64,000 bases of DNA. It comes from Pseudo-nitzschia pungens. Lineage: Eukaryota; Bacillariophyta; Bacillariophyceae; Bacillariales; Bacillariaceae. Position 1 is the first letter of the stretch; every line of letters starts with the position of its first letter. Positions 1 through 22,467 of this stretch are shown in pieces. The translations under genes were made by a program, and so were the position numbers. The notes below the pieces were generated by a model. It saw nothing but the letters and a program-made list of their open reading frames with translations. It was not told the DNA's origin and searched no databases. The stretch spans positions 620,001-684,000 of the forward strand of contig CM074762.1 in assembly GCA_037355855.1 (NCBI GenBank), in the 5' to 3' direction.

Positions 1-3000
1 GTGCGTCGCCAAGTGGAGGTCCATCTGGTAGCCCAAGTGGCTCTCCAAGTGTTGGTCCGTCTGCTAGTCCGAGTGCATCCCCAAGTGTATCACCTAGTGG
101 AACTCCAAGCAGCTCACCATCTGCATCACCAAGTGGAAGTTTCTATCCCAGCAGTGCACCTTCTGACAGCCCAACAAAGAGTTTGTCTCCAAGTGCTTCT
201 CCCAGTGGATCTCCTTCTGGTTCCCCAAGTGGAAGCCCTTCAGACGTGCCTTCTGTGAGTCCAAGCGGTGTTCCCTCTGGTAGTCCAAGCGCATCACCAA
301 GTGGTGTTCCATCTGCCAGTCCAAGCTCATCTCCCAGTGGTGGTCCATCTGCTAGTCCCAGTGCTTCTCCCTCTTACCAGCCGAGTTCATCCCCTAGTGC
401 ATCCCCCAGTGCTTCTCCATCCTCCAGTCCTTCTGCATCACCAAGTAGCATCCCAAGTGCTTCTCCTTCAGCATCCCCTTCTGTGTCCATGATGCCCACA
501 GACTTGCTACATGCCAGCTCCTGGAAAGGTTGTTGAGCAAATGTGTGTTGATAGTGAGAGTGTTGTTGATACTACTGTTGGAATGCCTGAAGGTGCTCTT
601 GTTATCAGCAAGCAGGATGGTTCCAAGGTGGAGTTCACTGTGAGCCTTGCTTGGGCTGGTGCATCGGGCATGGCAGTTTTGTCTCAAGACTCAGACCTGG
701 AATCAAGTTGTACAGTGATGGGCAATGTTGGTTATGGTTACTCTGAGAAGTTTGTAGGAGGATGCATTGAAGGCATCACTAGTGTCACAGTTGTGGCATA
801 CATGGATGAAGGATTTGACCCTGAAGAGTGTGAAGCCTGCAATGCTGGTGATCTTGAAGCGATGGGAGGAGAGTATTCATTCTGTGCCTACAGGATTGAG
901 ATTCCTTGTGAGTCAATCAGTGTTGAATGTGGGGAGCCAAGTACACCACCAAGTGGAAGTTTCTATCCCAGCAGTGCACCTTCGGACAGCCCGACAAAGA
1001 GTTCATCTCCAAGTGCTTCACCGAGTGGATCTCCATCTGTTTCACCTAGTGGAAGCCCCTCTGGCAGTCCCAGCCATTCTCCCTCAGGCAGTCCCTCTGT
1101 CAGTCCAAGTGGTGGACCGTCTGGTAGTCCAAGCGCATCACCAAGTGGTGTTCCATCTGCCAGTCCCAGTGCATGGCCAAGTGGTGTTCCATCTGCCAGT
1201 CCGAGTGCTTCTCCATCTGGTTTGCCTAGTGCATCCCCCAGTTCTTCGCCATCTTTGAGTCCTTCTGCATCTCCAAGCTGGAAGTCCAAGCAGCTCTACC
1301 ATCTGAATCACCAAGTGGAAGTTTCTATCCCAGCAGTGCACCTTCTGACAGCCCAACAAAGAGTTTGTCTCCAAGTGCTTCTCCCAGTGTATCTCCAAGC
1401 TCATCACCAAGTGTATCTCCATCTGGCTCACCAAGTGGCTCGCCGTCTGGCAGTCCGAGTGGTTCCCCCTCTGTTAGCCCGAGTGCGTCGCCAAGTGGAG
1501 GTCCATCTGGTAGCCCAAGTGGCTCTCCAAGTGTTGGTCCGTCTGCTAGTCCGAGTGCATCCCCAAGTGTATCACCTAGTGGAACTCCAAGCAGCTCACC
1601 ATCTGCATCACCAAGTGGAAGTTTCTATCCCAGCAGTGCACCTTCTGACAGCCCAACAAAGAGTTTGTCTCCAAGTGCTTCTCCCAGTGGATCTCCTTCT
1701 GGTTCCCCAAGTGGAAGCCCTTCAGACGTGCCTTCTGTGAGTCCAAGCGGTGTTCCCTCTGGTAGTCCAAGCGCATCACCAAGTGGTGTTCCATCTGCCA
1801 GTCCAAGCTCATCTCCCAGTGGTGGTCCATCTGCTAGTCCCAGTGCTTCTCCCTCTTACCAGCCGAGTTCATCCCCTAGTGCATCCCCCAGTGCTTCTCC
1901 ATCCTCCAGTCCTTCTGCATCACCAAGTAGCATCCCAAGTGCTTCTCCTTCAGCATCCCCTTCTGTGTCCATGATGCCCACAGACTTGCTACATGCCAGC
2001 TCCTGGAAAGGTTGTTGAGCAAATGTGTGTTGATAGTGAGAGTGTTGTTGATACTACTGTTGGAATGCCTGAAGGTGCTCTTGTTATCAGCAAGCAGGAT
2101 GGTTCCAAGGTGGAGTTCACTGTGAGCCTTGCTTGGGCTGGTGCATCGGGCATGGCAGTTTTGTCTCAAGACTCAGACCTGGAATCAAGTTGTACAGTGA
2201 TGGGCAATGTTGGTTATGGTTACTCTGAGAAGTTTGTAGGAGGATGCATTGAAGGCATCACTAGTGTCACAGTTGTGGCATACATGGATGAAGGATTTGA
2301 CCCTGAAGAGTGTGAAGCCTGCAATGCTGGTGATCTTGAAGCGATGGGAGGAGAGTATTCATTCTGTGCCTACAGGATTGAGATTCCTTGTGAGTCAATC
2401 AGTGTTGAATGTGGGGAGCCAAGTACACCACCAAGTGGAAGTTTCTATCCCAGCAGTGCACCTTCGGACAGCCCGACAAAGAGTTCATCTCCAAGTGCTT
2501 CACCGAGTGGATCTCCATCTGTTTCACCTAGTGGAAGCCCCTCTGGCAGTCCCAGCCATTCTCCCTCAGGCAGTCCCTCTGTCAGTCCAAGTGGTGGACC
2601 GTCTGGTAGTCCAAGCGCATCACCAAGTGGTGTTCCATCTGCCAGTCCCAGTGCATGCACCAAGTGGTGTTCCATCTGCCAGTCCGAGTGCTTCTCCATC
2701 TGGTTTGCCTAGTGCATCCCCCAGTTCTTCGCCATCTTTGAGTCCTTCTGCATCTCCAAGCGGAAGCTCCGAAGCAGCTCTCCATCTGAATCACCAAGTG
2801 GAAGTTTCTATCCCAGCAGTGCACCTTCTGACAGCCCAACAAAGAGTTTGTCTCCAAGTGCTTCTCCCAGTGTATCTCCAAGCTCATCACCAAGTGTATC
2901 TCCATCTGGCTCACCAAGTGGCTCGCCGTCTGGCAGTCCGAGTGGTTCCCCCTCTGTTAGCCCGAGTGCGTCGCCAAGTGGAGGTCCATCTGGTAGCCCA

Positions 3001-6000
3001 AGTGGCTCTCCAAGTGTTGGTCCGTCTGCTAGTCCGAGTGCATCCCCAAGTGTATCTCACCTAGTGGAACTCCAAGCAGCTCACCATCTGCATCACCAAG
3101 TGGAAGTTTCTATCCCAGCAGTGCACCTTCTGACAGCCCAACAAAGAGTTTGTCTCCAAGTGCTTCTCCCAGTGGATCTCCTTCTGGTTCCCCAAGTGGA
3201 AGCCCTTCAGACGTGCCTTCTGTGAGTCCAAGCGGTGGTCCCTCTGGTAGTCCAAGCGCATCACCAAGTGGTGTTCCATCTGCCAGTCCAAGCTCATCTC
3301 CCAGTGGTGGTCCATCTGCTAGTCCCAGTGCTTCTCCCTCTTACCAGCCGAGTTCATCCCCTAGTGCATCCCCCAGTGCTTCTCCATCCTCCAGTCCTTC
3401 TGCATCACCAAGTAGCATCCCAAGTGCTTCTCCTTCAGCATCCCCTTCTGTGTCCATGATGCCCACAGACTGCTACATGCCAGCTCCTGGAAAGGTTGTT
3501 GAGCAAATGTGTGTTGATAGTGAGAGTGTTGTTGATACTACTGTTGGAATGCCTGAAGGTGCTCTTGTTATCAGCAAGCAGGATGGTTCCAAGGTGGAGT
3601 TCACTGTGAGCCTTGCTTGGGCTGGTGCATCGGGCATGGCAGTTTTGTCTCAAGACTCAGACCTGGAATCAAGTTGTACAGTGATGGGCAATGTTGGTTA
3701 TGGTTACTCTGAGAAGTTTGTAGGAGGATGCATTGAAGGCATCACTAGTGTCACAGTTGTGGCATACATGGATGAAGGATTTGACCCTGAAGAGTGTGAA
3801 GCCTGCAATGCTGGTGATCTTGAAGCGATGGGAGGAGAGTATTCATTCTGTGCCTACAGGATTGAGATTCCTTGTGAGTCAATCAGTGTTGAATGTGGGG
3901 AGCCAAGTACACCACCAAGTGGAAGTTTCTATCCCAGCAGTGCACCTTCGGACAGCCCGACAAAGAGTTCATCTCCAAGTGCTTCACCGAGTGGATCTCC
4001 ATCTGTTTCACCTAGTGGAAGCCCCTCTGGCAGTCCCAGCCATTCTCCCTCAGGCAGTCCCTCTGTCAGTCCAAGTGGTGGACCGTCTGGTAGTCCAAGC
4101 GCATCACCAAGTGGTGTTCCATCTGCCAGTCCCAGTGCATGGCCAAGTGGTGTTCCATCTGCCAGTCCGAGTGCTTCTCCATCTGGTTTGCCTAGTGCAT
4201 CCCCCAGTTCTTCGCCATCTTTGAGTCCTTCTGCATCTCCAAGCGGAAGTCCAAGCAGCTCACCATCTGAATCACCAAGTGGAAGTTTCTATCCCAGCAG
4301 TGCACCTTCTGACAGCCCAACAAAGAGTTTGTCTCCAAGTGCTTCTCCCAGTGTATCTCCAAGCTCATCACCAAGTGTATCTCCATCTGGCTCACCAAGT
4401 GGCTCGCCGTCTGGCAGTCCGAGTGGTTCCCCCTCTGTTAGCCCGAGTGCGTCGCCAAGTGGAGGTCCATCTGGTAGCCCAAGTGGCTCTCCAAGTGTTG
4501 GTCCGTCTGCTAGTCCGAGTGCATCCCCAAGTGTATCACCTAGTGGAACTCCAAGCAGCTCACCATCTGCATCACCAAGTGGAAGTTTCTATCCCAGCAG
4601 TGCACCTTCTGACAGCCCAACAAAGAGTTTGTCTCCAAGTGCTTCTCCCAGTGGATCTCCTTCTGGTTCCCCAAGTGGAAGCCCTTCAGACGTGCCTTCT
4701 GTGAGTCCAAGCGGTGTTCCCTCTGGTAGTCCAAGCGCATCACCAAGTGGTGTTCCATCTGCCAGTCCAAGCTCATCTCCCAGTGGTGGTCCATCTGCTA
4801 GTCCCAGTGCTTCTCCCTCTTACCAGCCGAGTTCATCCCCTAGTGCATCCCCCAGTGCTTCTCCATCCTCCAGTCCTTCTGCATCACCAAGTAGCATCCC
4901 AAGTGCTTCTCCTTCAGCATCCCCTTCTGTGTCCATGATGCCCACAGACTTGCTACATGCCAGCTCCTGGAAAGGTTGTTGAGCAAATGTGTGTTGATAG
5001 TGAGAGTGTTGTTGATACTACTGTTGGAATGCCTGAAGGTGCTCTTGTTATCAGCAAGCAGGATGGTTCCAAGGTGGAGTTCACTGTGAGCCTTGCTTGG
5101 GCTGGTGCATCGGGCATGGCAGTTTTGTCTCAAGACTCAGACCTGGAATCAAGTTGTACAGTGATGGGCAATGTTGGTTATGGTTACTCTGAGAAGTTTG
5201 TAGGAGGATGCATTGAAGGCATCACTAGTGTCACAGTTGTGGCATACATGGATGAAGGATTTGACCCTGAAGAGTGTGAAGCCTGCAATGCTGGTGATCT
5301 TGAAGCGATGGGAGGAGAGTATTCATTCTGTGCCTACAGGATTGAGATTCCTTGTGAGTCAATCAGTGTTGAATGTGGGGAGCCAAGTACACCACCAAGT
5401 GGAAGTTTCTATCCCAGCAGTGCACCTTCGGACAGCCCGACAAAGAGTTCATCTCCAAGTGCTTCACCGAGTGGATCTCCATCTGTTTCACCTAGTGGAA
5501 GCCCCTCTGGCAGTCCCAGCCATTCTCCCTCAGGCAGTCCCTCTGTCAGTCCAAGTGGTGGACCGTCTGGTAGTCCAAGCGCATCACCAAGTGGTGTTCC
5601 ATCTGCCAGTCCGAGTGCTTCTCCATCTGGTGTGCCTAGTGCATCCCCCAGTTCTTCGCCATCTTTGAGTCCTTCTGCATCTCCAAGCGGAAGTCCAAGC
5701 AGCTCACCATCTGCATCACCAAGTGGAAGTTTCTATCCCAGCAGTGCACCTTCTGACAGCCCAACAAAGAGTTTGTCTCCAAGTGCTTCTCCCAGTGGAT
5801 CTCCTTCTGGTTCCCCAAGTGGAAGCCCTTCAGATGTGCCTTCTGTGAGTCCAAGCGGTGTTCCCTCTGGTAGTCCAAGCGCATCACCAAGTGGTGTTCC
5901 ATCTGCCAGTCCAAGCTCATCTCCCAGTGGTGGTCCATCTGCTAGTCCCAGTGCTTCTCCCTCTTACCAGCCTAGTTCATCCCCTAGTGCATCCCCCAGT

Positions 6001-9000
6001 GCTTCTCCATCCTCCAGTCCTTCTGCATCACCAAGTAGCATCCCAAGTGCTTCTCCTTCAGCATCCCCTTCTGTGTCCATGATGCCCACAGATTGCTACA
6101 TGCCAGCTCCTGGAAAGGTTGTTGAGCAAATGTGTGTTGATAGTGAGAGTGTTGTTGATACTACTGTTGGAATGCCTGAAGGTGCTCTTGTTATCAGCAA
6201 GCAGGATGGTTCCAAGGTGGAGTTCACTGTGAGCCTTGCTTGGGCTGGTGCATCGGGCATGGCAGTTTTGTCTCAAGACTCAGATCTGGAATCAAGTTGT
6301 ACAGTGATGGGCAATGTTGGTTATGGATACTCTGAGAAGTTTGTAGGAGGATGCATTGAAGGCATCACTAGTGTCACAGTTGTGGCATACATGGATGAAG
6401 GATTTGACCCTGAAGAGTGTGAAGCCTGCAATGCTGGTGATCTTGAAGCGATGGGAGGAGAGTATTCATTCTGTGCCTACAGGATTGAGATTCCTTGTGA
6501 GTCAATCAGTGTTGAATGTGGGGAGCCAAGTACACCACCAAGTGGAAGTTTCTATCCCAGCAGTGCACCTTCGGACAGCCCGACAAAGAGTTCATCTCCA
6601 AGTGCTTCACCGAGTGGATCTCCATCTGTTTCACCTAGTGGAAGCCCCTCTGGCAGTCCCAGCCATTCTCCCTCAGGCAGTCCCTCTGTCAGTCCAAGTG
6701 GTGGACCGTCTGGTAGTCCAAGCGCATCACCAAGTGGTGTTCCATCTGCCAGTCCCAGTGCATCACCAAGTGGTATTCCATCTGCCAGTCCGAGTGCTTC
6801 TCCATCTGGTTTGCCTAGTGCATCCCCCAGTTCTTCGCCATCTTTGAGTCCTTCTGCATCTCCAAGCGGAAGTCCAAGCAGCTCACCATCTGAATCACCA
6901 AGTGGAAGTTTCTATCCCAGCAGTGCACCTTCTGACAGCCCAACAAAGAGTTTGTCTCCAAGTGCTTCTCCCAGTGTATCTCCAAGCTCATCACCAAGTG
7001 TATCTCCATCTGGCTCACCAAGTGGCTCGCCGTCTGGCAGTCCGAGTGGTTCCCCCTCTGTTAGCCCGAGTGCGTCGCCAAGTGGAGGTCCATCTGGTAG
7101 CCCAAGTGGCTCTCCAAGTGTTGGTCCGTCTGCTAGTCCGAGTGCATCCCCAAGTGTATCACCTAGTGGAACTCCAAGCAGCTCACCATCTGCATCACCA
7201 AGTGGAAGTTTCTATCCCAGCAGTGCACCTTCTGACAGCCCAACAAAGAGTTTGTCTCCAAGTGCTTCTCCCAGTGGATCTCCTTCTGGTTCCCCAAGTG
7301 GAAGCCCTTCAGATGTGCCTTCTGTGAGTCCAAGCGGTGTTCCCTCTGGTAGTCCAAGCGCATCACCAAGTGGTGTTCCATCTGCCAGTCCAAGCTCATC
7401 TCCCAGTGGTGGTCCATCTGCTAGTCCCAGTGCTTCTCCCTCTTACCAGCCTAGTTCATCCCCTAGTGCATCCCCCAGTGCTTCTCCATCCTCCAGTCCT
7501 TCTGCATCACCAAGTAGCATCCCAAGTGCTTCTCCTTCAGCATCCCCTTCTGTGTCCATGATGCCCACAGATTGCTACATGCCAGCTCCTGGAAAGGTTG
7601 TTGAGCAAATGTGTGTTGATAGTGAGAGTGTTGTTGATACTACTGTTGGAATGCCTGAAGGTGCTCTTGTTATCAGCAAGCAGGATGGTTCCAAGGTGGA
7701 GTTCACTGTGAGCCTTGCTTGGGCTGGTGCATCGGGCATGGCAATTTTGTCTGAAAACAATGAGTGGGAATCAAGTTGTACAGTGATGGGCAATGTTGGT
7801 TATGGATACTCTGAGAAGTTTGTAGGAGGATGCATTGAAGGCATCACTAGTGTCACAGTTGTGGCATACATGGATGAAGGATTTGACCCTGAAGAGTGTG
7901 AAGCCTGCAATGCTGATGATCTTGAAGCGATGGGAGGAGAGTATTCATTCTGTGCCTACAGGATTGAGATTCCTTGTGAGTCAATCAGTGTTGAATGTGG
8001 GGAGCCAAGTACACCACCAAGTGGAAGTTTCTATCCCAGCAGTGCACCTTCGGACAGCCCGACAAAGAGTTCATCTCCAAGTGCTTCACCGAGTGGATCT
8101 CCATCTGTTTCACCTAGTGGAAGCCCCTCTGGCAGTCCCAGCCATTCTCCCTCAGGCAGTCCCTCTGTCAGTCCAAGTGGTGGACCGTCTGGTAGTCCAA
8201 GCGCATCACCAAGTGGTGTTCCATCTGCCAGTCCCAGTGCATGGCCAAGTGGTGTTCCATCTGCCAGTCCGAGTGCTTCTCCATCTGGTTTGCCTAGTGC
8301 ATCCCCCAGTTCTTCGCCATCTTTGAGTCCTTCTGCATCTCCAAGCGGAAGTCCAAGCAGCTCACCATCTGAATCACCAAGTGGAAGTTTCTATCCCAGC
8401 AGTGCACCTTCTGACAGCCCAACAAAGAGTTTGTCTCCAAGTGCTTCTCCCAGTGTATCTCCAAGCTCATCACCAAGTGTATCTCCATCTGGCTCACCAA
8501 GTGGCTCGCCGTCTGGCAGTCCGAGTGGTTCCCCCTCTGTTAGCCCGAGTGCGTCGCCAAGTGGAGGTCCATCTGGTAGCCCAAGTGGCTCTCCAAGTGT
8601 TGGTCCGTCTGCTAGTCCGAGTGCATCCCCAAGTGTATCACCTAGTGGAACTCCAAGCAGCTCACCATCTGCATCACCAAGTGGAAGTTTCTATCCCAGC
8701 AGTGCACCTTCTGACAGCCCAACAAAGAGTTTGTCTCCAAGTGGTTCTCCCAGTGGATCTCCTTCTGGTTCCCCAAGTGGAAGCCCTTCAGACGTGCCTT
8801 CTGTGAGTCCAAGCGGTGTTCCCTCTGGTAGTCCAAGCGCATCACCAAGTGGTGTTCCATCTGCCAGTCCAAGCTCATCTCCCAGTGGTGGTCCATCTGC
8901 TAGTCCCAGTGCTTCTCCCTCTTACCAGCCGAGTTCATCCCCTAGTGCATCCCCCAGTGCTTCTCCATCCTCCAGTCCTTCTGCATCACCAAGTAGCATC

Positions 9001-12000
9001 CCAAGTGCTTCTCCTTCAGCATCCCCTTCTGTGTCCATGATGCCCACAGATTGCTACATGCCAGCTCCTGGAAAGGTTGTTGAGCAAATGTGTGTTGATA
9101 GTGAGAGTGTTGTTGATACTACTGTTGGAATGCCTGAAGGTGCTCTTGTTATCAGCAAGCAGGATGGTTCCAAGGTGGAGTTCACTGTGAGCCTTGCTTG
9201 GGCTGGTGCATCGGGCATGGCAGTTTTGTCTCAAGACTCAGACCTGGAATCAAGTTGTACAGTGATGGGCAATGTTGGTTATGGTTACTCTGAGAAGTTT
9301 GTAGGAGGATGCATTGAAGGCATCACTAGTGTCACAGTTGTGGCATACATGGATGAAGGATTTGACCCTGAAGAGTGTGAAGCCTGCAATGCTGGTGATC
9401 TTGAAGCGATGGGAGGAGAGTATTCATTCTGTGCCTACAGGATTGAGATTCTTTGTGAGTCAATCAGTGTTGAATGTGGGGAGCCAAGTACACCACCAAG
9501 TGGAAGTTTCTATCCCAGCAGTGCACCTTCGGACAGCCCGACAAAGAGTTCATCTCCAAGTGCTTCACCGAGTGGATCTCCATCTGTTTCACCTAGTGGA
9601 AGCCCCTCTGGCAGTCCCAGCCGTTCTCCCTCAGGCAGTCCCTCTGTCAGTCCAAGTGGTGGACCGTCTGGTAGTCCAAGCGCATCACCAAGTGGTGTTC
9701 CATCTGCCAGTCCGAGTGCTTCTCCATCCGGTGTGCCTAGTGCATCCCCCAGTTCTTCGCCATCTTTGAGTCCTTCTGCATCTCCAAGTGGAACTCCGAG
9801 CAGCTCTCCATCTGAATCACCAAGTGGAAGTTTCTATCCCAGCAGTGCACCTTCTGACAGCCCAACAAAGAGTTTGTCTCCAAGTGCTTCTCCCAGTGTA
9901 TCTCCAAGCTCATCACCAAGTGTATCTCCATCTGGCTCACCAAGTGGCTCGCCGTCTGGCAGTCCGAGTGGTTCCCCCTCTGTTAGCCCGAGTGCGTCGC
10001 CAAGTGGAGGTCCATCTGGTAGCCCAAGTGGCTCTCCAAGTGTTGGTCCGTCTGCTAGTCCGAGTGCATCCCCAAGTGTATCTCCAACCGGAACTCCAAG
10101 CAGCTCACCATCTGCATCACCAAGTGGAAGTTTCTATCCCAGCAGTGCACCTTCTGACAGCCCAACAAAGAGTTTGTCTCCAAGTGCTTCTCCCAGTGGA
10201 TCTCCTTCTGGTTCCCCAAGTGGAAGCCCTTCAGATGTGCCTTCTGTGAGTCCAAGCGGTGTTCCCTCTGGTAGTCCAAGCGCATCACCAAGTGGTGTTC
10301 CATCTGCCAGTCCAAGCTCATCTCCCAGTGGTGGTCCATCTGCTAGTCCCAGTGCTTCTCCCTCTTACCAGCCGAGTTCATCCCCTAGTGCATCCCCCAG
10401 TGCTTCTCCATCCTCCAGTCCTTCTGCATCACCAAGTAGCATCCCAAGTGCTTCTCCTTCAGCATCCCCTTCTGTGTCCATGATGCCCACAGACTGCTAC
10501 ATGCCAGCTCCTGGAAAGGTTGTTGAGCAAATGTGTGTTGATAGTGAGAGTGTTGTTGATACTACTGTTGGAATGCCTGAAGGTGCTCTTGTTATCAGCA
10601 AGCAGGATGGTTCCAAGGTGGAGTTCACTGTGAGCCTTGCTTGGGCTGGTGCATCGGGCATGGCAGTTTTGTCTCAAGACTCAGACCTGGAATCAAGTTG
10701 TACAGTGATGGGCAATGTTGGTTATGGTTACTCTGAGAAATTTGTAGGAGGATGCATTGAAGGCATCACTAGTGTCACAGTTGTGGCATACATGGATGAA
10801 GGATTTGACCCTGAAGAGTGTGAAGCCTGTGATGCTGATGATCTTGAAGCGATGGGAGGAGGTAATGCATTCTGTGCCTACAGGATTGAGATTCCTTGTG
10901 AGTCAATCAGTGTTGAATGTGGGGAGCCAAGTACACCACCAAGTGGAAGTTTCTATCCCAGCAGTGCACCTTCGGACAGCCCGACAAAGAGTTCATCTCC
11001 AAGTGCTTCACCGAGTGGATCTCCATCTGTTTCACCTAGTGGAAGCCCCTCTGGCAGTCCCAGCCATTCTCCCTCAGGCAGTCCCTCTGTCAGTCCAAGT
11101 GGTGGACCGTCTGGTAGTCCAAGCGCATCACCAAGTGGTGTTCCATCTGCCAGTCCCAGTGCATGGCCAAGTGGTGTTCCATCTGCCAGTCCGAGTGCTT
11201 CTCCATCTGGTTTTCCTAGTGCATCCCCCAGTTCTTCGCCATCTTTGAGTCCTTCTGCATCTCCAAGTGGAACTCCGAGCAGCTCTCCATCTGAATCACC
11301 AAGTGGAAGTTTCTATCCCAGCAGTGCACCTTCTGACAGCCCAACAAAGAGTTTGTCTCCAAGTGGATCTCCATCTAGCTCACCAAGCTTCTCCCCGAGT
11401 GCATCTCCATCTAGCTCACCAAGCTCCTCCCCGAGTGCATCTCCATCTGGCTCACCAAGTGGTTCCCCCTCTGGCAGTCCAAGTGGTTCGCCAAGTGTTG
11501 GTCCGTCTGCTAGTCCGAGTGCATCCCCTAGTGTATCACCTAGTGGAACTCCAAGCAGCTCACCATCTGCATCACCAAGTGGAAGTTTCTATCCCAGCAG
11601 TGCACCTTCTGACAGCCCAACAAAGAGTTTGTCTCCAAGTGCTTCTCCCAGTGGATCTCCTTCTGGTTCCCCAAGTGGAAGCCCTTCAGACGTGCCTTCT
11701 GTGAGTCCAAGCGGTGTTCCCTCTGGTAGTCCAAGCGCATCACCAAGTGGTATTCCATCTGCCAGTCCGAGTGCTTCTCCATCTGGTTTGCCTAGTGCAT
11801 CCCCCAGTTCTTCGCCATCTTTGAGTCCTTCTGCATCTCCAAGTGGAACTCCGAGCAGCTCTCCATCTGAATCACCAAGTGGAAGTTTCTATCCCAGCAG
11901 TGCACCTTCTGACAGCCCAACAAAGAGTTTGTCTCCAAGTGCTTCTCCCAGTGTATCTCCAAGCTCATCACCAAGTGTATCTCCATCTAGCTCACCAAGC

Positions 12001-15000
12001 TCCTCCCCGAGTGCATCTCCATCTGGCTCACCAAGTGGTTCCCCCTCTGGTAGTCCAAGTGGTTCGCCAAGTGGAGGTCCGTCTGCTAGTCCGAGTGCAT
12101 CCCCAAGTGTATCACCTAGTGGAACTCCAAGCAGCTCACCATCTGCATCACCAAGTGGAAGTTTCTATCCCAGCAGTGCACCTTCTGACAGCCCAACAAA
12201 GAGTTTGTCTCCAAGTGAATCTCCATCTAGCTCACCAAGCTCCTCCCCGAGTGCATCTCCATCTAGCTCACCAAGCTCCTCCCCGAGTGCATCTCCATCT
12301 GGCTCACCAAGTGGTTCCCCCTCTGGTATTCCAAGTGGTTCGCCAAGTGTTGGTCCGTCTGCTACTCTGAGTGCATCCCCAAGTGTATCACCTAGTGGAA
12401 CTCCAAGCAGCTCTCCATCTGCATCACCAAGTGGAAGTTTCTATCCCAGCAGTGCACCTTCTGACAGCCCAACAAAGAGTTTGTCTCCAAGTGCTTCTCC
12501 CAGTGGATCTCCTTCTGGTTCCCCAAGTGGAAGCCCTTCAGACGTGCCTTCTGTGAGTCCAAGCGGTGTTCCCTCTGGTAGTCCAAGCGCATCACCAAGT
12601 GGTATTCCATCTGCCAGTCCGAGTGCTTCTCCATCTGGTTTGCCTAGTGCATCCCCCAGTTCTTCGCCATCTTTGAGTCCTTCTGCATCTCCAAGTGGAA
12701 CTCCGAGCAGCTCTCCATCTGAATCACCAAGTGGAAGTTTCTATCCCAGCAGTGCACCTTCTGACAGCCCAACAAAGAGTTTGTCTCCAAGTGCTTCTCC
12801 CAGTGTATCTCCAAGCTCATCACCAAGTGTATCTCCATCTAGCTCACCAAGCTCCTCCCCGAGTGCATCTCCATCTGGCTCACCAAGTGGTTCCCCCTCT
12901 GGTATTCCAAGTGGTTCGCCAAGTGTTGGTCCGTCTGCTAGTCCGAGTGCATCCCCAAGTGTATCACCTAGTGGAACTCCAAGCAGCTTTCCATCTGCAT
13001 CACCAAGTGGAAGTTTCTATCCCAGCAGTGCACCTTCTGACAGCCCAACAAAGAGTTTGTCTCCAAGTGCTTCTCCCAGTGGATCTCCTTCTGGTTCCCC
13101 AAGTGGAAGCCCTTCAGATGTGCCTTCTGTGAGTCCAAGCGGTGTTCCCTCTGGTAGTCCAAGCGCATCACCAAGTGGTGTTCCATCTGCCAGTCCAAGC
13201 TCATCTCCCAGTGGTGGTCCATCTGCTAGTCCCAGTGCTTCTCCCTCTTACCAGCCGAGTTCATCCCCTAGTGCATCCCCCAGTGCTTCTCCATCCTCCA
13301 GTCCTTCTGCATCACCAAGTAGCATCCCAAGTGCTTCTCCTTCAGCATCCCCTTCTGTGTCCATGATGCCCACAGACTGCTACATGCCAGCTCCTGGAAA
13401 GGTTGTTGAGCAAATGTGTGTTGATAGTGAGAGTGTTGTTGATACTACTGTTGGAATGCCTGAAGGTGCTCTTGTTATCAGCAAGCAGGATGGTTCCAAG
13501 GTGGAGTTCACTGTGAGCCTTGCTTGGGCTGGTGCATCGGGCATGGCAGTTTTGTCTCAAGACTCAGACCTGGAATCAAGTTGTACAGTGATGGGCAATG
13601 TTGGTTATGGTTACTCTGAGAAATTTGTAGGAGGATGCATTGAAGGCATCACTAGTGTCACAGTTGTGGCATACATGGATGAAGGATTTGACCCTGAAGA
13701 GTGTGAAGCCTGTGATGCTGATGATCTTGAAGCGATGGGAGGAGGTAATGCATTCTGTGCCTACAGGATTGAGATTCCTTGTGAGTCAATCAGTGTTGAA
13801 TGTGGGGAGCCAAGTACACCACCAAGTGGAAGTTTCTATCCCAGCAGTGCACCTTCGGACAGCCCGACAAAGAGTTCATCTCCAAGTGCTTCACCGAGTG
13901 GATCTCCATCTGTTTCACCTAGTGGAAGCCCCTCTGGCAGTCCCAGCCATTCTCCCTCAGGCAGTCCCTCTGTCAGTCCAAGTGGTGGACCGTCTGGTAG
14001 TCCAAGCGCATCACCAAGTGGTGTTCCATCTGCCAGTCCCAGTGCATGGCCAAGTGGTGTTCCATCTGCCAGTCCGAGTGCTTCTCCATCTGGTTTTCCT
14101 AGTGCATCCCCCAGTTCTTCGCCATCTTTGAGTCCTTCTGCATCTCCAAGTGGAACTCCGAGCAGCTCTCCATCTGAATCACCAAGTGGAAGTTTCTATC
14201 CCAGCAGTGCACCTTCTGACAGCCCAACAAAGAGTTTGTCTCCAAGTGGATCTCCATCTAGCTCACCAAGCTTCTCCCCGAGTGCATCTCCATCTAGCTC
14301 ACCAAGCTCCTCCCCGAGTGCATCTCCATCTGGCTCACCAAGTGGTTCCCCCTCTGGCAGTCCAAGTGGTTCGCCAAGTGTTGGTCCGTCTGCTAGTCCG
14401 AGTGCATCCCCTAGTGTATCACCTAGTGGAACTCCAAGCAGCTCACCATCTGCATCACCAAGTGGAAGTTTCTATCCCAGCAGTGCACCTTCTGACAGCC
14501 CAACAAAGAGTTTGTCTCCAAGTGCTTCTCCCAGTGGATCTCCTTCTGGTTCCCCAAGTGGAAGCCCTTCAGACGTGCCTTCTGTGAGTCCAAGCGGTGT
14601 TCCCTCTGGTAGTCCAAGCGCATCACCAAGTGGTATTCCATCTGCCAGTCCGAGTGCTTCTCCATCTGGTTTGCCTAGTGCATCCCCCAGTTCTTCGCCA
14701 TCTTTGAGTCCTTCTGCATCTCCAAGTGGAACTCCGAGCAGCTCTCCATCTGAATCACCAAGTGGAAGTTTCTATCCCAGCAGTGCACCTTCTGACAGCC
14801 CAACAAAGAGTTTGTCTCCAAGTGCTTCTCCCAGTGTATCTCCAAGCTCATCACCAAGTGTATCTCCATCTAGCTCACCAAGCTCCTCCCGGAGTGCATC
14901 TCCATCTGGCTCACCAAGTGGTTCCCCCTCTGGTAGTCCAAGTGGTTCGCCAAGTGGAGGTCCGTCTGCTAGTCCGAGTGCATCCCCAAGTGTATCACCT

Positions 15001-18000
15001 AGTGGAACTCCAAGCAGCTCACCATCTGCATCACCAAGTGGAAGTTTCTATCCCAGCAGTGCACCTTCTGACAGCCCAACAAAGAGTTTGTCTCCAAGTG
15101 AATCTCCATCTAGCTCACCAAGCTCCTCCCCGAGTGCATCTCCATCTAGCTCACCAAGCTCCTCCCCGAGTGCATCTCCATCTGGCTCACCAAGTGGTTC
15201 CCCCTCTGGTATTCCAAGTGGTTCGCCAAGTGTTGGTCCGTCTGCTAGTCCGAGTGCATCCCCAAGTGTATCACCTAGTGGAACTCCAAGCAGCTCTCCA
15301 TCTGCATCACCAAGTGGAAGTTTCTATCCCAGCAGTGCACCTTCTGACAGCCCAACAAAGAGTTTGTCTCCAAGTGCTTCTCCCAGTGGATCTCCTTCTG
15401 GTTCCCCAAGTGGAAGCCCTTCAGACGTGCCTTCTGTGAGTCCAAGCGGTGTTCCCTCTGGTAGTCCAAGCGCATCACCAAGTGGTATTCCATCTGCCAG
15501 TCCGAGTGCTTCTCCATCTGGTTTGCCTAGTGCATCCCCCAGTTCTTCGCCATCTTTGAGTCCTTCTGCATCTCCAAGTGGAACTCCGAGCAGCTCTCCA
15601 TCTGAATCACCAAGTGGAAGTTTCTATCCCAGCAGTGCACCTTCTGACAGCCCAACAAAGAGTTTGTCTCCAAGTGCTTCTCCCAGTGTATCTCCAAGCT
15701 CATCACCAAGTGTATCTCCATCTAGCTCACCAAGCTCCTCCCCGAGTGCATCTCCATCTGGCTCACCAAGTGGTTCCCCCTCTGGTATTCCAAGTGGTTC
15801 GCCAAGTGTTGGTCCGTCTGCTAGTCCGAGTGCATCCCCAAGTGTATCACCTAGTGGAACTCCAAGCAGCTTTCCATCTGCATCACCAAGTGGAAGTTTC
15901 TATCCCAGCAGTGCACCTTCTGACAGCCCAACAAAGAGTTTGTCTCCAAGTGCTTCTCCCAGTGGATCTCCTTCTGGTTCCCCAAGTGGAAGCCCTTCAG
16001 ATGTGCCTTCTTTAAGTCCAAGCGGTGTTCCCTCTGGTAGTCCAAGCGCATCACCAAGTGGTGTTCCATCTGCCAGTCCAAGCTCATCTCCCAGTGGTGG
16101 TCCATCTGCTAGTCCCAGTGCTTCTCCCTCTTACCAGCCGAGTTCATCCCCTAGTGCATCCCCCAGTGCTTCTCCATCCTCCAGTCCTTCTGCATCACCA
16201 AGTAGCATCCCAAGTGCTTCTCCTTCAGCATCCCCTTCTGTGTCCATGATGCCCACAGATTGCTACATGCCAGCTCCTGGAAAGGTTGTTGAGCAAATGT
16301 GTGTTGATAGTGAGAGTGTTGTTGATACTACTGTTGGAATGCCTGAAGGTGCTCTTGTTATCAGCAAGCAGGATGGTTCCAAGGTGGAGTTCACTGTGAG
16401 CCTTGCTTGGGCTGGTGCATCGGGCATGGCAGTTTTGTCTCAAGACTCAGACCTGGAATCAAGTTGTACAGTGATGGGCAATGTTGGTTATGGTTACTCT
16501 GAGAAGTTTGTAGGAGGATGCATTGAAGGCATCACTAGTGTCACAGTTGTGGCATACATGGATGAAGGATTTGACCCTGAAGAGTGTGAAGCCTGTGATG
16601 CTGATGATCTTGAAGCGATGGGAGGAGAGTAATGCATTCTGTGCCTACAGGATTGAGATTCCTTGTGAGTCAATCAGTGTTGAATGTGGGGAGCCAAGTA
16701 CACCACCAAGTGGAAGTTTCTATCCCAGCAGTGCACCTTCGGACAGCCCGACAAAGAGTTCATCTCCAAGTGCTTCACCGAGTGGATCTCCATCTGTTTC
16801 ACCTAGTGGAAGCCCCTCTGGCAGTCCCAGCCATTCTCCCTCAGGCAGTCCCTCTGTCAGTCCAAGTGGTGGACCGTCTGGTAGTCCAAGCGCATCACCA
16901 AGTGGTGTTCCATCTGCCAGTCCAAGCGCATCACCAAGTGGTGTTCCATCTGCCAGTCCGAGTGCTTCTCCATCCGGTGTGCCTAGTGTATCCCTCAGTT
17001 CTTCGCCATCTTTGAGTCCTTCTGCATCTCCAAGCGGAACTCCAAGCAGCTCACCATCTGAATCACCAAGTGGAAGCTTCTATCCCAGCAGTGCACCTTC
17101 TGACAGCCCAACAAAGAGTTTGTCTCCAAGTGGATCTCCATCTAGCTCACCAAGCTTCTCCCCGAGTGCATCTCCATCTGGCTCACCAAGTGGCTCCCCC
17201 TCTGGTAGTCCAAGTGGTTCGCCAAGTGTTGGTCCATCTGCTAGTCCGAGTGCATCCCCAAGTGTATCACCTAGTGGAACTCCAAGCAGCTCACCATCTG
17301 CATCACCAAGTGGAAGTTTCTATCCCAGCAGTGCACCTTCTGACAGCCCGACCAGTAGCTCCTATCCTAGTTTTCCCCCCAGCTCGTCTCCATCGAGCTC
17401 ACCAAGTTCAGTTCCTTCGGTCATTCCTAGTGTTTCCCCTTCTTCTATCCCAAGTGAACTGCCAAGCAGCTCTCCATCTGCATCACCAAGTGGAAGTTTC
17501 TATCCAAGCAGTGCACCTTCTGACAGCCCGACCAGTAGCTCCTATCCTAGTTCTTCCCCCAGCTCGTCTCCATCGATTTCACCAAGTTCAGTTCCTTCGG
17601 TCAGTCCTAGTGTTTCCCCTTCTTCTAGCCCAAGTGAACTGCCAAGCAGCTCTCCATCTGCATCACCCAGTGGAAGCTTCTATCCCAGCAGTGCACCTTC
17701 TGACAGCCCGACCAGTAGCTCCTATCCTAGTTCTTCTCCCAGCTCGTCTCCATCGAGCTCACCAAGCTCAGTTCCTTCGGTCAGTCCTAGTGTTTCCCCT
17801 TCTTCTAGCCCAAGTGAACTGCCAAGCAGCTCTCCATCTGCATCACCAAGTGGAAGTTTCTATCCCAGCAGTCCACCCTCAGTCACGCCAACAAAGAGTT
17901 TGTCTCCAAGTGCTTCTCCCAGCGCATCTCCATCTGGCTCACCGAGTTTTGTTCCCTCCGAAAGTGTTTCCCCTTCTTTCTCACCTACTGGACCTGAAAG

Positions 18001-18830
18001 ATGTCCACCTGACGATCCTATTTTGATTGATTTTGTTGGTGGAACCATGTATCCAGAAGGTTATCCCCCTATTAAGATAACTTCTCAGAACACGACGCAT
18101 GTTCGTTTCAAAGTTGTCAATTCTTGGAACAGGACCTTCAAGTATTTCTTCACAGAAGTACCACGCAGGCAGTTTTGGTGAGACTGAATGCCTTCCAGAA
18201 GAAAATATATCACCACAATTGGAAGTAGACGAATATTTAGCAACATGCATGCACAATGTTCCCATTTCCATCGTGAATATTTGGGTTGTCGATAATAACC
18301 GGGTATGGTTTGATGAGATGGATGACGCTGAAGTACCTGAATGTTGTCATCCACCTGAGCTCTCAAGTGTTCCGGTTGTACAATATACTTTCAAGGTACC
18401 TTGTAGTTGCCCTTCTCGATCCCGTCATCTTGCGGCAACGACAAATTCTGAAGAGAAGAAGGTTAACCTCCATTCTAAGTCTTCTTCATTGGACGAACAG
18501 TTACATGTTGAGAAAAATAAGTTTGTATCGCCGGATGAATCTTTGGACCACAATTCTTGGAGAAAGGATCGTCCATCTCAAGTTGTTTCTTCTTCAGAAC
18601 CCAGTATCGATGCGAGTGATGGTCACTTTTGTGTATCAGAAGATTATCCGTGTGGAGAGAATAATGATCGCGTTCATGTTTGTCACTACTCTGCACGCGA
18701 TGGCTACAAAACTTTCTGTGTTCCGGAAGCAGATTCTGATGTGTTAGCTTTTTACAAAAAAGACTATTGCGGACCTTGCGTAGGTGGCTACGGAGGTACC
18801 ACGAAAAAGAAGAAAAGAACCTGGCTGTAG
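1..18830 (+). CDS. Giant modular Ser/Pro-repeat extracellular-type protein (5' partial, frame broken)
   Basis: The sense frame at the left edge starts at base 3, and the protein continues to the stop at 18828-18830, about 6,270 codons once the frame breaks are allowed for. It alternates a folded nine-Cys module with Ser-Pro tetrapeptide linkers (SPSx) punctuated about 40 times by the tag GSFYPSSAPSDSPTK. Around 18000-18415 a divergent module follows the last linker, then a Cys-rich segment (CHYS, DYCGPC) and a basic end (TKKKKRTWL). The N-terminus, and so any signal peptide, lies outside the window. Composition resembles mucin-like or hydroxyproline-rich wall and adhesive proteins of diatoms, so a secreted, heavily O-glycosylated structural or adhesive role is likely but inferred. 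The frame is broken near 504, 1278, 1297, 1986, 2658, 2767, 2772, 3057, 4951, 16630 and 18130. All breaks gain bases, and a long intact ORF spans 4957-16632, so I treat this as one gene and not a string of pseudogenes. The other open frames here are periodicity shadows. Confidence 0.85.
501..510 (+). other. Frame break (+1), merged-variant signature
   Basis: The window reads CAGACTTGCTAC. Intact copies read CAGACTGCTAC (3466, 10490, 13373) or CAGATTGCTAC (6089, 7569, 9048, 16256). Keeping both the C and the T of the variable site gives the observed string and shifts the frame by +1. The same string recurs at 1981-1992 and 4944-4955. Confidence 0.8.
1275..1300 (+). other. Double frame break (+2), merged-variant signature
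   Basis: AAGCTGGAAGTCC stands where intact copies have AAGCGGAAGTCC or AAGTGGAACTCC. Twenty bases on, CAGCTCTACCATC stands where copies have CAGCTCACCATC or CAGCTCTCCATC. Each site keeps both alternative bases. Confidence 0.8.
2651..2664 (+). other. Frame break (+1), merged-variant signature
   Basis: GTGCATGCACCAAG stands where intact copies have GTGCATGGCCAAG (Ala-Trp-Pro form) or GTGCATCACCAAG (Ala-Ser-Pro form). Confidence 0.78.
2761..2778 (+). other. Double frame break (+2), merged-variant signature
   Basis: CGGAAGCTCCGAAGCAGC (18 bases) stands where the two 16-base forms are CGGAAGTCCAAGCAGC and TGGAACTCCGAGCAGC. Both polymorphic positions are doubled (GC and GA). Confidence 0.8.
3052..3068 (+). 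other. Frame break (+2), merged-variant signature
   Basis: GTATCTCACCTAGTGG stands where intact copies have GTATCACCTAGTGG or GTATCTCCAACCGG (the latter at 10079). The TC of the second form precedes the complete first form. Confidence 0.7.
10495..16260 (+). repeat. 2,883-bp higher-order tandem duplication (two units)
   Basis: Units 10495-13377 and 13378-16260 have exactly the same length (961 codons), each with one Cys module followed by the same ordered series of linker blocks. I saw only a few substitutions, for example GCTACTCTG at 12361 against GCTAGTCCG in the second unit, and a GTGAGT to TTAAGT change near 16013. The frame is open across both. The near identity indicates recent unequal exchange, or an assembly duplication. 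Confidence 0.85.
16622..16637 (+). other. Frame break (+1) creating the stop that ends the long ORF
   Basis: GGAGAGTAATGCATT combines the two module variants GGAGAGTATTCATT (EYSFC form) and GGAGGTAATGCATT (GNAFC form). The inserted base makes the TAA at 16630-16632. Downstream the same module continues in the next frame (NAFCAYRIEIPC). Confidence 0.82.
17309..17860 (+). repeat. 180-bp tandem linker repeat (three units)
   Basis: The GSFYPSS tag recurs at about 17309, 17489, 17669 and 17849, an exact 180-bp (60-residue) period. The units have their own vocabulary (SPTSSSYPSSSPSSSPS, PSELPSSSPS) that is absent upstream, so this C-terminal linker was amplified separately from the main array. Confidence 0.85.
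18000..18415 (+). repeat. Divergent eleventh Cys module with a frame break near 18130
   Basis: The sequence after the last linker keeps the module landmarks: CPPDD then PEG, then HVRFKVVNSW (compare KVEFTVSLAW), then in the next frame GETEC, a Cys 18 residues later, a hydrophobic strand, ECC, YTFKVPC and C. Module-like coding runs in frame 2 to about 18127 and in frame 3 from about 18130 (GPSSISSQKYHAGS), again a +1 shift. No plausible GT-AG intron fits between the two. Confidence 0.7.
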
Positions 18831-19829: not shown

Positions 19830-22467
19830 ATGGGGAAGCAGAGCAAAAGAACCCGCAAATTTATCTCGAGTGGTGGAGTCAAAGGCCGTCTACAAAAGGG
19901 CACAATAACGAACAAGGGGTCTCTGAAACGAAAAAGTAAGAAGAATTCAGTGACTAGAGAGGATGGCAAAGCAGCCAGTGAAGAGGGCACGTATCGACAA
20001 TGCCTCTGCCCAATACGTAGCAGAAAAAGAGCAGAAAAGGGAGGAAGCCGACCTTGTGTCGAAGAAGAATTTGGGCGAGTTGGACATGGAAAGCTTTTTC
20101 AAGACATTTGAAGATGATGACGGCGATGATATTGAGGATGATGTGCGTTATGTTGAAGAGCAAATGATGAAAGAAAATGATGACGAGGATGACGGAGATA
20201 TCGCAGATGATGAGACGGAAATGACCAAGGGGGAAGGAAGTGACAGCGACAGCGAAGATCTAGAAAAGGCTGAGCGCCGAATGCGAGAAGAAATGGCAAA
20301 ACTTCGGAAGAAAGATCCAGAATTTCATCAATTCCTACGAGAAAACGAAGATTCACTTTTAGATTATGGACGCGACGACCTTTTGGACAATGGCAGCGTC
20401 AGCGAGCCAGAGGATGAAAGTCAAACCGAGGAGGAAGATACCAAAGCAGATCACACTTTAAACGATTTATCTATTCGATTGACTTCTTCGCTTCTTGTGA
20501 AATATGAAAAAGGAGCTTTTAAATCACATGGTATCAAGGCACTAAAGAAGCTCGTAAATGCTTATAAATCTGCATGCCATATGACAGATGAAGAAAGAAT
20601 TCAAGATGGACGAGGACAAAATTACAAAATCGAATCCTCGGATGTTTTTGATCGTTTAATGGTTCTATCGCTTGACCAAGTTTAAGGACGAATTCTATTT
20701 CCATTTGCTTGGACAGGGGTCGAAATTCAACGTAAAAGAGAGCAAGAACGAAACCAGTAAGGCGAAAAATTTAGCCGACAAGCAGTGACGAGGAGGGCGA
20801 TGAGGATGATATTTTTGATCCCGAGAAACCGATAAACCCGAAGGTTTTGGAACGTTCTGAACGCTGGAACGATTTAAACCCTATCTTGTTTACATTCTTC
20901 AAAGCGACGATTAATATTCTTTCAGAAGCCAAGGAATCAAAGCTTGTTTCCTTTCTTTTGAACGCTTTATTTCAGTACATTCCGTACATGACACCATTTC
21001 CGCGACTTGCCGAATCTATGTTGAAAGTCCTGACATCACTGTGGAGCGCTCCCAAAGATTCATCAGAAGATTACCAAGTCGTTCGACTTCATGCCTTCCT
21101 ACGGATAAGGCAGTTAGCACTGACGCAACCTTTTCCATTTATTGAAGAATGCCTGAAGAAATTGTATTTGGCATACGCACAGCGGGCCAAATTTGCCACT
21201 GCATCATCTGTTACTTCTGCGCTTCCTACCCTCACGTTTATGGGAAACTGTGTTGTCGAAATATACAGTTTGGATTATTATTCATCTTATCAGCACGCAT
21301 TCATTTATATCCGTCAGTTGGCATTGCATTTACGAACGGCAACGCAGAAGAAGACACCCGAAGCAACTGGTACTGTCTACTCTTGGCAGTTTTTGCATTG
21401 CTTGAAGCTATGGGTGGCCGTCCTCACAGAAGCATGTCAGTCAGATTATGATTTTGAAGGCTCGAGCAACAACGAAGACCAACTTCTTCGTTCTTTGATT
21501 TTCCCCCTTACCCAAATTATCCTGGGTACTGCAAGACTTATTCCAGCGACACGCTTTTTGCCTCTCCGCCTTCATTGTGTTCGTTTGTTGCAACAACTGG
21601 CGGCAGCAGCTGAAATTTTTCTTCCCACGACTTCCATTTTGTTAGATGTCTTCGATTTGCACGAATTGTCCCAACCACCGAAAAAAGTCCACAGAAGTAA
21701 CATTCAACCAATGGCTTTAACATTAAGGCTTCGGGCTGATAACCCTCTGCGAAGTATGGAAGAGATGGAAATGTGTCTTTCGGAGGTTTTTGTTCTCTTA
21801 AATCGTGAAGTCGACCTCTATCGGTATTCTGCCGGCTTCCCAGAATTTTCTATCAGGATCTGTCAAAGGCTTAGAAAGGTGGGTCCTTCTTAATTTATCA
21901 TAGCCTGAACGCAATGGCATTGAAATGATTCCGATGAGATATTTTTTCCTTTCGTCACTCTGATACTATTTCCCCATCGTTTCCTACTGAATTTGGTTTT
22001 TTTCCCTTTATCAACAACAACAGTATTCAAAGGAAACGCGAAACGGACGCTGGCGCGCCTATGCTAAGGGCTGCATCGAACTATGTGAGCGTTACTCAAC
22101 TCACGTTATGAACGAACGAATCAATGGTACGGTGTTGACCGATGTAGCTCCTAAAGATGTGAACCAACTCGAAGTTTTGAGGCCACATTCTGTACCCAGT
22201 ATGGGGCAGCGTTACAAACAGTCAATTGAGAAGGAAAAGCGACTGGAATCGGCAACCAAGCCAGCACAAAGCAAAAGGAGCGAGAAGAAGGAAGTCATAA
22301 ACAAGAACAATAAGAAAAAGAGCGACAAACGTGTGGAGTTGAAGAGCAGCAATAGGATGAACAAGGGAAGAGAATCAGAAGTTGAAAAGGCACTACAAGA
22401 GGGAAACACCTCTCTCAACCAAGAAGATGAAGTGGAGGAGGGCATTAATTGGTCAGATGACGAATAG
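19830..22467 (+). CDS. NOC2: Nucleolar complex protein 2 (NOC2), frame broken in this assembly
   Basis: NOC2 is a ribosome biogenesis factor that escorts pre-60S particles with NOC1/NOC3 in the nucleolus and nucleoplasm. The start MGKQSKRTRKF is typical of the family. A basic and acidic N-terminal part follows (FFKTFEDDDGDD, DPEFHQFLRENE), then the helical core with NPILFTFFKATINIL, YSWQFLHCLKLW and, at about 21500-21600, LIFPLTQIILGTARLIPATR then FLPLRLHCVRLL, the family hallmark. The C-terminal exon (22024-22467) begins YSKETRNGRWRAYAKGC and ends EEGINWSDDE. The reading frame shifts +1 between about 19935 and 19963, again near 20671 (TCGCTTGACC) and near 20783 (AAGCAGTGACG). Conserved coding continues on both sides of each, so indel errors are more likely than a pseudogene, though decay cannot be excluded. 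One intron, 21879-22023. Confidence 0.85.
21879..22023 (+). other. NOC2 intron, 145 nt
   Basis: Donor AAAG|GTGGGT after LRK; acceptor CAACAG|TATTCA. Phase 0, and the downstream frame matches the C-terminal exon. Confidence 0.75.

Follow-up and report, generated by a model that had tools for sequence, protein, structure and literature searches.

The pleuralins of the pennate diatom wall are PSCD-repeat proteins, with repeated domains containing Pro, Ser, and Cys, and CaTrailin4, an adhesive trail protein of Craspedostauros australis, is reportedly a giant as well. Adhesive trail proteins of Amphora coffeaeformis are described as carrying vWD and GDPH domains (PMC7335047), and a title cited in PMC11420354 reports that such proteins were acquired from bacteria. 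Diatom adhesive nanofibers are reported to give the force signature of modular proteins (PMC3821603, PMC3614968). Silica-associated diatom proteins are reported to be processed at the tripeptide Arg-X-Leu (PMC5525289, PMC9650480), which is called typical of many biosilica-associated proteins (PMC5525289).

Here, we describe a gene of Pseudo-nitzschia pungens whose 3' half lies in the window, i.e., the whole 64,000-nucleotide stretch of DNA that was analyzed. The make-up of its predicted product may resemble the repeated Pro/Ser/Cys domains of the pleuralins. It also resembles the adhesive trail proteins in being modular and, by prediction, secreted. Of the two domains carried by the Amphora proteins, GDPH was looked for as a literal string, which does not occur in the product or in those of two paralogous loci (C9 and C1); vWD gave no match in the stretches covered, which were the nine-Cys module, residues 1 to 523, and window positions 18096 to 18802 (235 residues). 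Silaffins, silicanin-1, and cingulins have a signal peptide and Arg-X-Leu, and the protein described here has a signal-peptide-like start and a conserved Arg-X-Leu. This site lies near the C terminus, as is reported for the frustule protein Tp12162, whereas the RXL domain of silicanin-1 is N-terminal and follows the signal peptide (PMC5525289, PMC9650480). Instead of the NQ-rich region described for silicanin-1 (PMC5525289), there are Ser/Pro linkers and very many Cys residues. A search of titles and abstracts, with subscription journals mostly outside its coverage, found none on this gene family and none in which "diatom" and "DUF7633" occur together; DUF7633 alone could still occur.

Layout of the gene and its product

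The gene spans positions 603820 to 638830 of the contig (C5; about 35,000 bases), starting 16,181 bp 5' of the first base of the window, and can be read as a single gene without any intron. After the frame breaks described below were bridged, the predicted product came to about 11,700 residues (11,663) and 1.10 MDa, with 54% Ser plus Pro and 201 Cys residues; because the assembly is broken within the array, this length and the copy number of the modules are approximate. The chain opens with three Cys domains, continues with an array of 18 near-identical nine-Cys modules, and closes with a DUF7633 domain and a conserved Cys tail (Table 1). The 22 related Cys domains are spaced by long Ser/Pro linkers, in which a Phe-Tyr motif (GSFYPSS) recurs.

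The original prediction, made from the sequence of the window, was of one giant gene ending at position 18830 and encoding at least 6,000 residues, with ten near-identical modules, a divergent eleventh domain, and about 40 copies of GSFYPSSAPSDSPTK. The window portion comes to 6,271 residues, position 18830 is exactly the end of the stop codon, ten modules were found with exactly nine Cys residues each, and there are 39 exact copies of GSFYPSSAPSDSPTK in the window and 71 across the whole gene. The eleventh domain is present at the C-terminal end but is a DUF7633 domain with seven Cys residues, not nine. As to the single gene, its start was found upstream, along with 8 additional nine-Cys modules and the three N-terminal Cys domains, which are divergent, but the frame is not continuous and switches 10 times within the window.

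The 18 modules comprise only 8 distinct protein sequences. Neighboring units in C5:615.6-625.0 kb are mostly >99% identical, and the longest exact repeat is 2,374 bp. This near-identity points to recent growth or homogenization of the array, via unequal exchange or conversion.

Table 1. Features of the giant gene within the window (window coordinates)
Feature	Position	Strand	Remark
3' half of giant gene	1..18830	+	Whole gene, C5:603820-638830
Eight of ten window frame breaks (502, 1277, 1299, 1984, 2657, 2773, 3057, 4948)	502..4948	+	Extra bases where copies differ
Nine-Cys module 9 of 18	505..945	+	First in window
Nine-Cys module 10	1987..2427	+	
Nine-Cys module 11	3471..3911	+	
Nine-Cys module 12	4951..5391	+	
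Longest unbroken frame within window	4957..16632	+	3,891 codons
Nine-Cys module 13	6094..6534	+	Structure predicted for 6079-6534, five residues longer
Nine-Cys module 14	7573..8013	+	
Nine-Cys module 15	9052..9492	+	
Nine-Cys module 16	10495..10935	+	
Nine-Cys module 17	13378..13818	+	
Nine-Cys module 18	16261..16702	+	One frame break near 16628
C-terminal DUF7633 domain (type D)	18002..18404	+	Frame break near 18157
Conserved Arg-X-Leu site (RHL)	18423..18431	+	Between DUF7633 and C-tail
Conserved Cys-rich C-tail	18624..18788	+	HFC..PCG..CHYSARDGYKTFCVPE..CGPCVGG

Frame breaks in the repeat array

A frame scan gave 14 frame switches ahead of the last nine codons of the gene, 12 of which fall in C5:615.6-625.0 kb. 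At all 13 breaks that were tested, skipping one or two bases produced a 28-mer present elsewhere in the gene, and addition of a single base restored a known 28-mer at only 1. At 6 of the 13, deletion of either one of two neighboring bases led to a variant that occurs elsewhere in the gene. The 14th break lies in unique sequence near the C terminus and is accounted for by the intact reading of the paralog at C9. Since one or two extra bases are found where repeat copies differ, we read the breaks as assembly errors. Introns were ruled out as their cause, given that all 13 fit one or two extra bases with no segment removed and that only 1 fits a single missing base.

A concentration of frame switches in units that are mostly >99% identical, around an exact repeat of 2,374 bp, is also what might be seen if the giant length were an artifact of an over-expanded assembly or if the locus were decayed, a pseudogene with real frameshifts. 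The uniform fit to extra bases argues against this, as do the six breaks with two alternative base removals, which is the pattern of a consensus error. Moreover, about 3,940 codons are open ahead of the first break, the longest frame after it runs for 3,891 codons, and the giant gene at C1 is unbroken (an 11,865-codon frame). Artifact or decay is quite improbable in our judgment. On the opposite strand at C1, open frames within the repeat array reach up to 4,424 codons, so that in such repeats frame length alone proves nothing.

Nine-Cys modules and related domain types

Four profiles (types A, B, the nine-Cys module, and D) were used to scan the relatives other than P0080 to P0087. For Cys counts, each domain hit was taken with 6 residues of N-terminal and 14 of C-terminal flank, identical copies entered once, and hits that did not cover the profile were dropped (21 of 80 module hits, 6 of 35 for type A, 1 of 24 for B, and 4 of 52 for D). 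The odd Cys count first noted held throughout the modules: among distinct aligned copies whose N terminus is intact, all 41 have nine invariant Cys residues and no others. It did not extend to type A domains, which mostly have eight (20 of 29); two Cys residues of the module are absent from type A. Type D has an optional Cys pair, which was present in 30 domains and absent from 18, while no domain had a single member; Cys residues gained or lost as a pair are as expected for disulfides.

Comparison of profiles gave probabilities of 99.3% between the module and type A, 98.1% between types A and D, and 90.3% between the module and type D, by which the four types form one superfamily that includes DUF7633 (PF24636). 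The C-terminal domain of the C5 product scored 38.5 bits over its in-frame second half (profile positions 50 to 121), above the curated cutoff of 27, and a profile search of the genome also recovered it at 40.1 bits. The nine-Cys module itself had no direct DUF7633 match when searched against Pfam; like types A and B, it is related to this family, which has no assigned function, by profile comparison.

The structure predicted for module 13 was nearly all beta (mean pLDDT, 84.4) and weakly resembled fibronectin III. Searching solved structures by sequence yielded seven matches, all weak, and the best of them ran across the Ser/Pro part. In a 449-residue model, the C-tail stayed below a pLDDT of 50, with no fold. 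As a working analogy, fibronectin type III proteins, titin, and gel-forming mucins likewise present serial beta modules and Ser/Pro-rich spacers, the fibronectin fold match being weak.

Paralogs, relatives, and selection

The paralog at C9 encodes 2,740 amino acids in an unbroken frame, with its parts in the same general order as at C5, and the giant at C1 encodes 11,816 amino acids, also unbroken. Against the eighteen modules at C5, these paralogs have three and five, respectively; metagenome relatives have at least one or two each, which are lower bounds because these proteins are short or cut. The modules at the two other loci are 50 to 72% identical to the typed module. Between loci, dN/dS was 0.19 to 0.36 where dS was finite, on the basis of 7 modules chosen from 26 as representatives; no ratio was obtained for pairs whose dS was saturated. 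This range indicates purifying selection on the modules between loci and, together with the identities above, sets chance aside as a concern. Within C5, comparison of an old copy with a recent one gave a dN/dS of 0.59, i.e., no clear constraint among recent copies. Such a fast-changing array might serve cell-cell recognition or mating by showing its modules to partner cells, and it would fit this role that copies are homogenized within the array and that loci differ. Purifying selection between loci and the retention of all nine Cys residues speak against it, however, and make it very unlikely.

Searches for relatives scored the best 7,993, 7,994, and 7,986 candidates by shared words, and among these the named relatives were from P. 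pungens and Pseudo-nitzschia multistriata, in agreement with the diatom origin first proposed. One relative carries the JGI label "Psemu1," which we take to be P. multiseries, and "merc" presumably denotes a metatranscriptome catalog. The P. pungens transcript P0044 was 74 to 88% identical to its best-matching locus, and the P. multistriata protein P0080 was 43 to 62% identical to the C5 N terminus. Two DUF7633-bearing relatives, P0044 and P0084, have MMETSP transcript names and are therefore transcribed. The extracellular modular type that had been anticipated is supported by 2 of 10 scanned relatives (P0077 and P0078), which have the chitin-binding domain CBM_14; P0078 also has VWA above the cutoff.

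A bacterial or viral origin was considered and rejected: scans with two short patterns gave 30 matches in bacterial and archaeal genomes and 50 in viral contigs, with no relative confirmed in either set, although distant relatives could be missed by two such patterns. This result sets the family apart from the adhesive trail proteins, for which a bacterial origin is reported.

Putative secretion signal and Arg-X-Leu site

The search for a signal peptide upstream, which the original prediction had called for, led to a signal-peptide-like N terminus 16.2 kb 5' of the window. After Met-Arg, the C5 N terminus is hydrophobic, with a hydropathy peak of 2.75 over 11 residues. Similar starts were found at C9 and C1 and in P0080, P0045, and P0084, and beyond residue 40 no 19-residue window passed the hydropathy threshold in the C5, C9, or C1 products. 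These features, judged by hydropathy and not by a dedicated predictor, make secretion of the C5 protein likely.

In 39 of 82 scanned proteins, pattern matching found the Cys tail C-terminal to DUF7633. The linker between the two contains Arg-X-Leu in 38 of these 39, compared to an average of 4.5 in shuffles; with the motif reversed, the count was 6 of 39. A fortieth protein, P0005, which the tail pattern missed, also has Arg-X-Leu.

The protein may instead belong to the frustule, where it would be part of the silica matrix or the organic casing rather than an adhesive; it would coat the wall or be embedded in it and would be matured by cleavage at Arg-X-Leu as silica-associated proteins are. 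The chitin-binding domain of two relatives is consistent with such a role, as is the fact that the named relatives belong to Pseudo-nitzschia, which is planktonic rather than attached. The near-constant Arg-X-Leu in the linkers points the same way, this motif being described as typical of biosilica-associated proteins (PMC5525289). However, silaffins, cingulins, and silacidins are described in the same source as having one or no Cys, versus 201 here, and a frustule protein seems to us a tentative and rather unlikely alternative.

Proposed role

We see an even chance that the C5 product is secreted and forms a mucin-like structural polymer in the extracellular matrix of the diatom. The protein would enter the secretory pathway, its Ser/Pro linkers would be heavily modified and extended, and a cut at Arg-X-Leu would free the Cys tail upon secretion or arrival at the wall. 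The beta modules would act as folded beads, the linkers as spacers, and the Phe-Tyr motifs as possible stickers. The odd number of Cys residues per module may leave one free to cross-link chains, as was first proposed, and disulfides between chains would then yield an extensible network; the partner of the odd Cys could instead lie in the same chain or in another protein. Most likely, the polymer would be found in the casing of the cell wall or in adhesive mucilage.

A bolder proposal, which we think improbable, is that the saw-tooth force curves of diatom adhesive fibers arise from modular proteins of which the C5 product is one. The beta modules would be the sacrificial units, hidden length would be stored in the Ser/Pro linkers (contour, approximately 4.2 micrometers), the odd Cys would tie parallel chains, and cleavage of the tail at Arg-X-Leu would switch a soluble precursor to a network.

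With these results, an unnamed family, comprising DUF7633 and three related domain types, gains an anatomy and a probable secretory role. Two chemical predictions follow, namely, unpaired or interchain Cys residues and C-terminal processing at Arg-X-Leu. With a gene for repeated beta modules in hand, the question of which proteins cause nanofiber mechanics would become directly testable.

Extent and integrity of the giant gene

The window covers positions 620001 to 684000 of contig C5 in a 66.9-Mb genome of 28 contigs. The repeats originally noted within window bases 1 to 18830 were recovered, but the gene does not start at window base 1: GSFYPSS repeats reach back to C5:605818. A 4,028-codon open frame starts at C5:603727; its first Met lies at C5:603820, upstream of the window, and a hydrophobic stretch comes after it. 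The stop codon ends at window position 18830. Read across frame breaks, the product comprises 11,663 residues (1.10 MDa; pI 4.05) with 36% Ser, 18% Pro, and 201 Cys. Domains of four types (A, B, D, and the nine-Cys module M) make up 3,061 of these residues, in the order A, A, B, 18 copies of M, and D, followed by a Cys-rich C-terminal end (Cys tail). Module starts are exactly 493 residues apart in 8 of 17 intervals, and the fully stretched chain would measure approximately 4.2 micrometres (calculated at 0.36 nm per residue).

A frame scan returned 17 switches, of which 14 were retained; 3 were discarded because they lay in the last nine codons or past the stop. At all 13 breaks tested, dropping one or two bases gave a 28-mer known from another place in the gene, and at 6 of them dropping either of two adjacent bases gave a known variant. 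As a control, one base was inserted instead; a single one of the 13 sites then yielded a known 29-mer. This is the pattern expected if the consensus retained both versions of a variable base. Twelve of the 14 fall in C5:615.6-625.0 kb, where adjacent units are mostly >99% identical, and the longest exact repeat is 2,374 bp. The break near window position 18157 sits in unique sequence, where the C9 paralogue is unbroken (FTEYHAGSFGE). On the basis of the base-skipping results, the insertion control, and this C9 reading, the gene was taken as intact, with an approximate array copy number.

Open frames neighboring the giant gene in the window, and its two paralogues
Feature	Location	Strand	Product and frame	DNA stretch labels
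Noc2 open frame	window 20847-21890			
Myb-like open frame	window 24090-25718			
Gpi16 of GPI transamidase, open frame	window 26164-28182	-		
RCC1 repeats and zinc finger, open frame	window 36016-40581			
Sulfotransferase-like open frame	window 51773-53752			
C9 paralogue	C9:488001-496223		2,740 residues, single unbroken frame	L055
C1 second giant gene	C1:1461323-1496773		11,816 residues, single unbroken frame	L047-L052, L057

Domain types and cysteine patterns

Profile comparison linked type A with M, B, and D at probabilities of 99.3%, 98.2%, and 98.1%, respectively, and gave 97.0% for B-D, 94.8% for M-B, and 90.3% for M-D. Judged from these profiles, the four types form one domain superfamily that includes DUF7633, the Pfam family corresponding to type D. 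A search of the genome lists 13 matches to DUF7633. Three protein searches yielded 87 distinct proteins; the 79 from the first two were combined with C5, C9, and C1 for a scan with the four profiles, which detected at least one domain in 63 of these 82.

Matches covering the M profile numbered 59 of 80 (48 of them distinct), and in the distinct copies all nine Cys columns held Cys wherever a letter was present. The nine Cys per module originally noted held in 41 of 41 copies with the N-terminus present; 7 copies truncated before the first Cys had eight. Type B had seven Cys in 20 of 23 copies. In type D (n = 48), 33 copies had nine Cys, 14 had seven, and 1 had eight; an optional pair was present in 30, absent in 18, and never single. 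A seven-Cys core with optional pairs fits the patterns of M, B, and D. Type A had eight Cys in 20 of 29 copies (five to seven in the remainder), usually one beyond this core and hence an even number. In the profile comparison, six M Cys align with A; both types have one more Cys after the final Pro-Cys of the alignment, and the second and seventh Cys of M have no matching column in A. These patterns support disulfides in general and leave an odd Cys in M, B, and D.

Paralogues and selection

The C9 paralogue has its parts in the same general order as C5: ABABAB, Ser/Pro sequence containing GSFYPSS, MMM, D, a stretch of Gly, Ser, Pro, and Thr, and a Cys tail like that of C5. By eye, the last two of its three A-B pairs are nearly identical. 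The C1 giant carries five modules, other Ser/Pro repeats (PSM-type), and short Cys motifs, which we take to resemble ShK-type domains. Open frames of up to 4,424 codons on the minus strand of its array (C1:1464400-1493730) are a side effect of repeat codons.

Between loci, module DNA (7 representatives of 26 modules) gave dN/dS values of 0.19 to 0.36 for pairs with finite dS, some near saturation, which argues that the modules are under purifying selection between loci. Within C5, one old module copy compared with one recent copy gave 0.59, and the 41 variable sites of the 18 copies were even over codon positions (13, 13, and 15); this pair and these sites gave no sign of constraint among recent copies.

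Linkers, putative cleavage motif, and relatives

A GSFYPS-like motif lay within 24 residues after M in 55 of 78 copies and never after A (0/32), B (0/24), or D (0/46); the amplified 15-mer thus looks like a module cap that may have spread through the linkers. At L012:6011-7129, three GSFYPSSAPSDSPTK copies are joined to WDVS-type repeats, presumably BspA/DUF285-like, so that the linker motif appears to occur in another protein type as well.

Of the 39 linkers that join D to the Cys tail (C5, C9, and 37 found proteins), 38 contained Arg-X-Leu, compared with an average of 4.5 in shuffled linkers and 6 of 39 for Leu-X-Arg. P0006 alone lacked it; P0005 had it, though the tail pattern missed this protein. 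A search of this genome for the Cys tail gave the C5 and C9 loci only (E up to 0.01). In silaffins, the RXL domain is described as being cut off by proteolysis, and it is called typical for many biosilica-associated proteins (PMC5525289); the RXL motif is called a potential cleavage site (PMC9650480).

The named relatives are diatoms, including Pseudo-nitzschia pungens (P0044) and P. multistriata (P0080); P0045, with a JGI label, is presumably P. multiseries. Amphora coffeaeformis P0061 matched in the Ser/Pro-rich part only. The nearest counterpart of P0080 in this genome is the C5 N-terminus (43 to 62% identity). Bacterial/archaeal and viral collections, each scanned with two short patterns, yielded no confirmed relative. 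Among ten relatives scanned with Pfam, P0077 contained CBM_14 and P0078 contained CBM_14 and VWA. Such chitin-binding relatives, together with the Arg-X-Leu site, favor a reading in which the C5 protein may belong to the wall casing.

The P. pungens transcript P0044 has a relative (74 to 88% identity) on the minus strand at C1:338493-342938 (L058-L060). This relative carries DUF7633, a linker with GSFYPSS, and a region that resembles VWA only as judged by eye; Pfam found no VWA in P0044. At approximately C11:1639815-1641524 (minus strand), a 6,989-codon open frame matches the Ser/Pro part of P0044 and is possibly another giant or a mere open repeat frame.

Proposed role

The sequence anatomy, conservation, and relatives of the C5 protein are direct observations. 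The protein would be secreted, with extended linkers, its chain cut at Arg-X-Leu and its chains cross-linked, and would have a material role. A mucin-titin hybrid may serve as a working analogy, with folded beads, modified spacers, and disulfide joins. CaTrailin4 is a further large modular diatom extracellular protein. Proteins of this large, modular kind are already known from diatoms (PMC7335047, PMC3821603). As an alternative to the wall casing, the C5 protein may belong to adhesive mucilage, as favored by the modular array and by the diatom adhesive-fibre mechanics described in the literature (PMC3821603, PMC3614968).

A literature search of incomplete coverage found no paper on the domain family. 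Several elements seem to be new: this family and its union with DUF7633, the invariant pattern of nine Cys, the Arg-X-Leu site and its Cys tail, and growth to about 18 modules.
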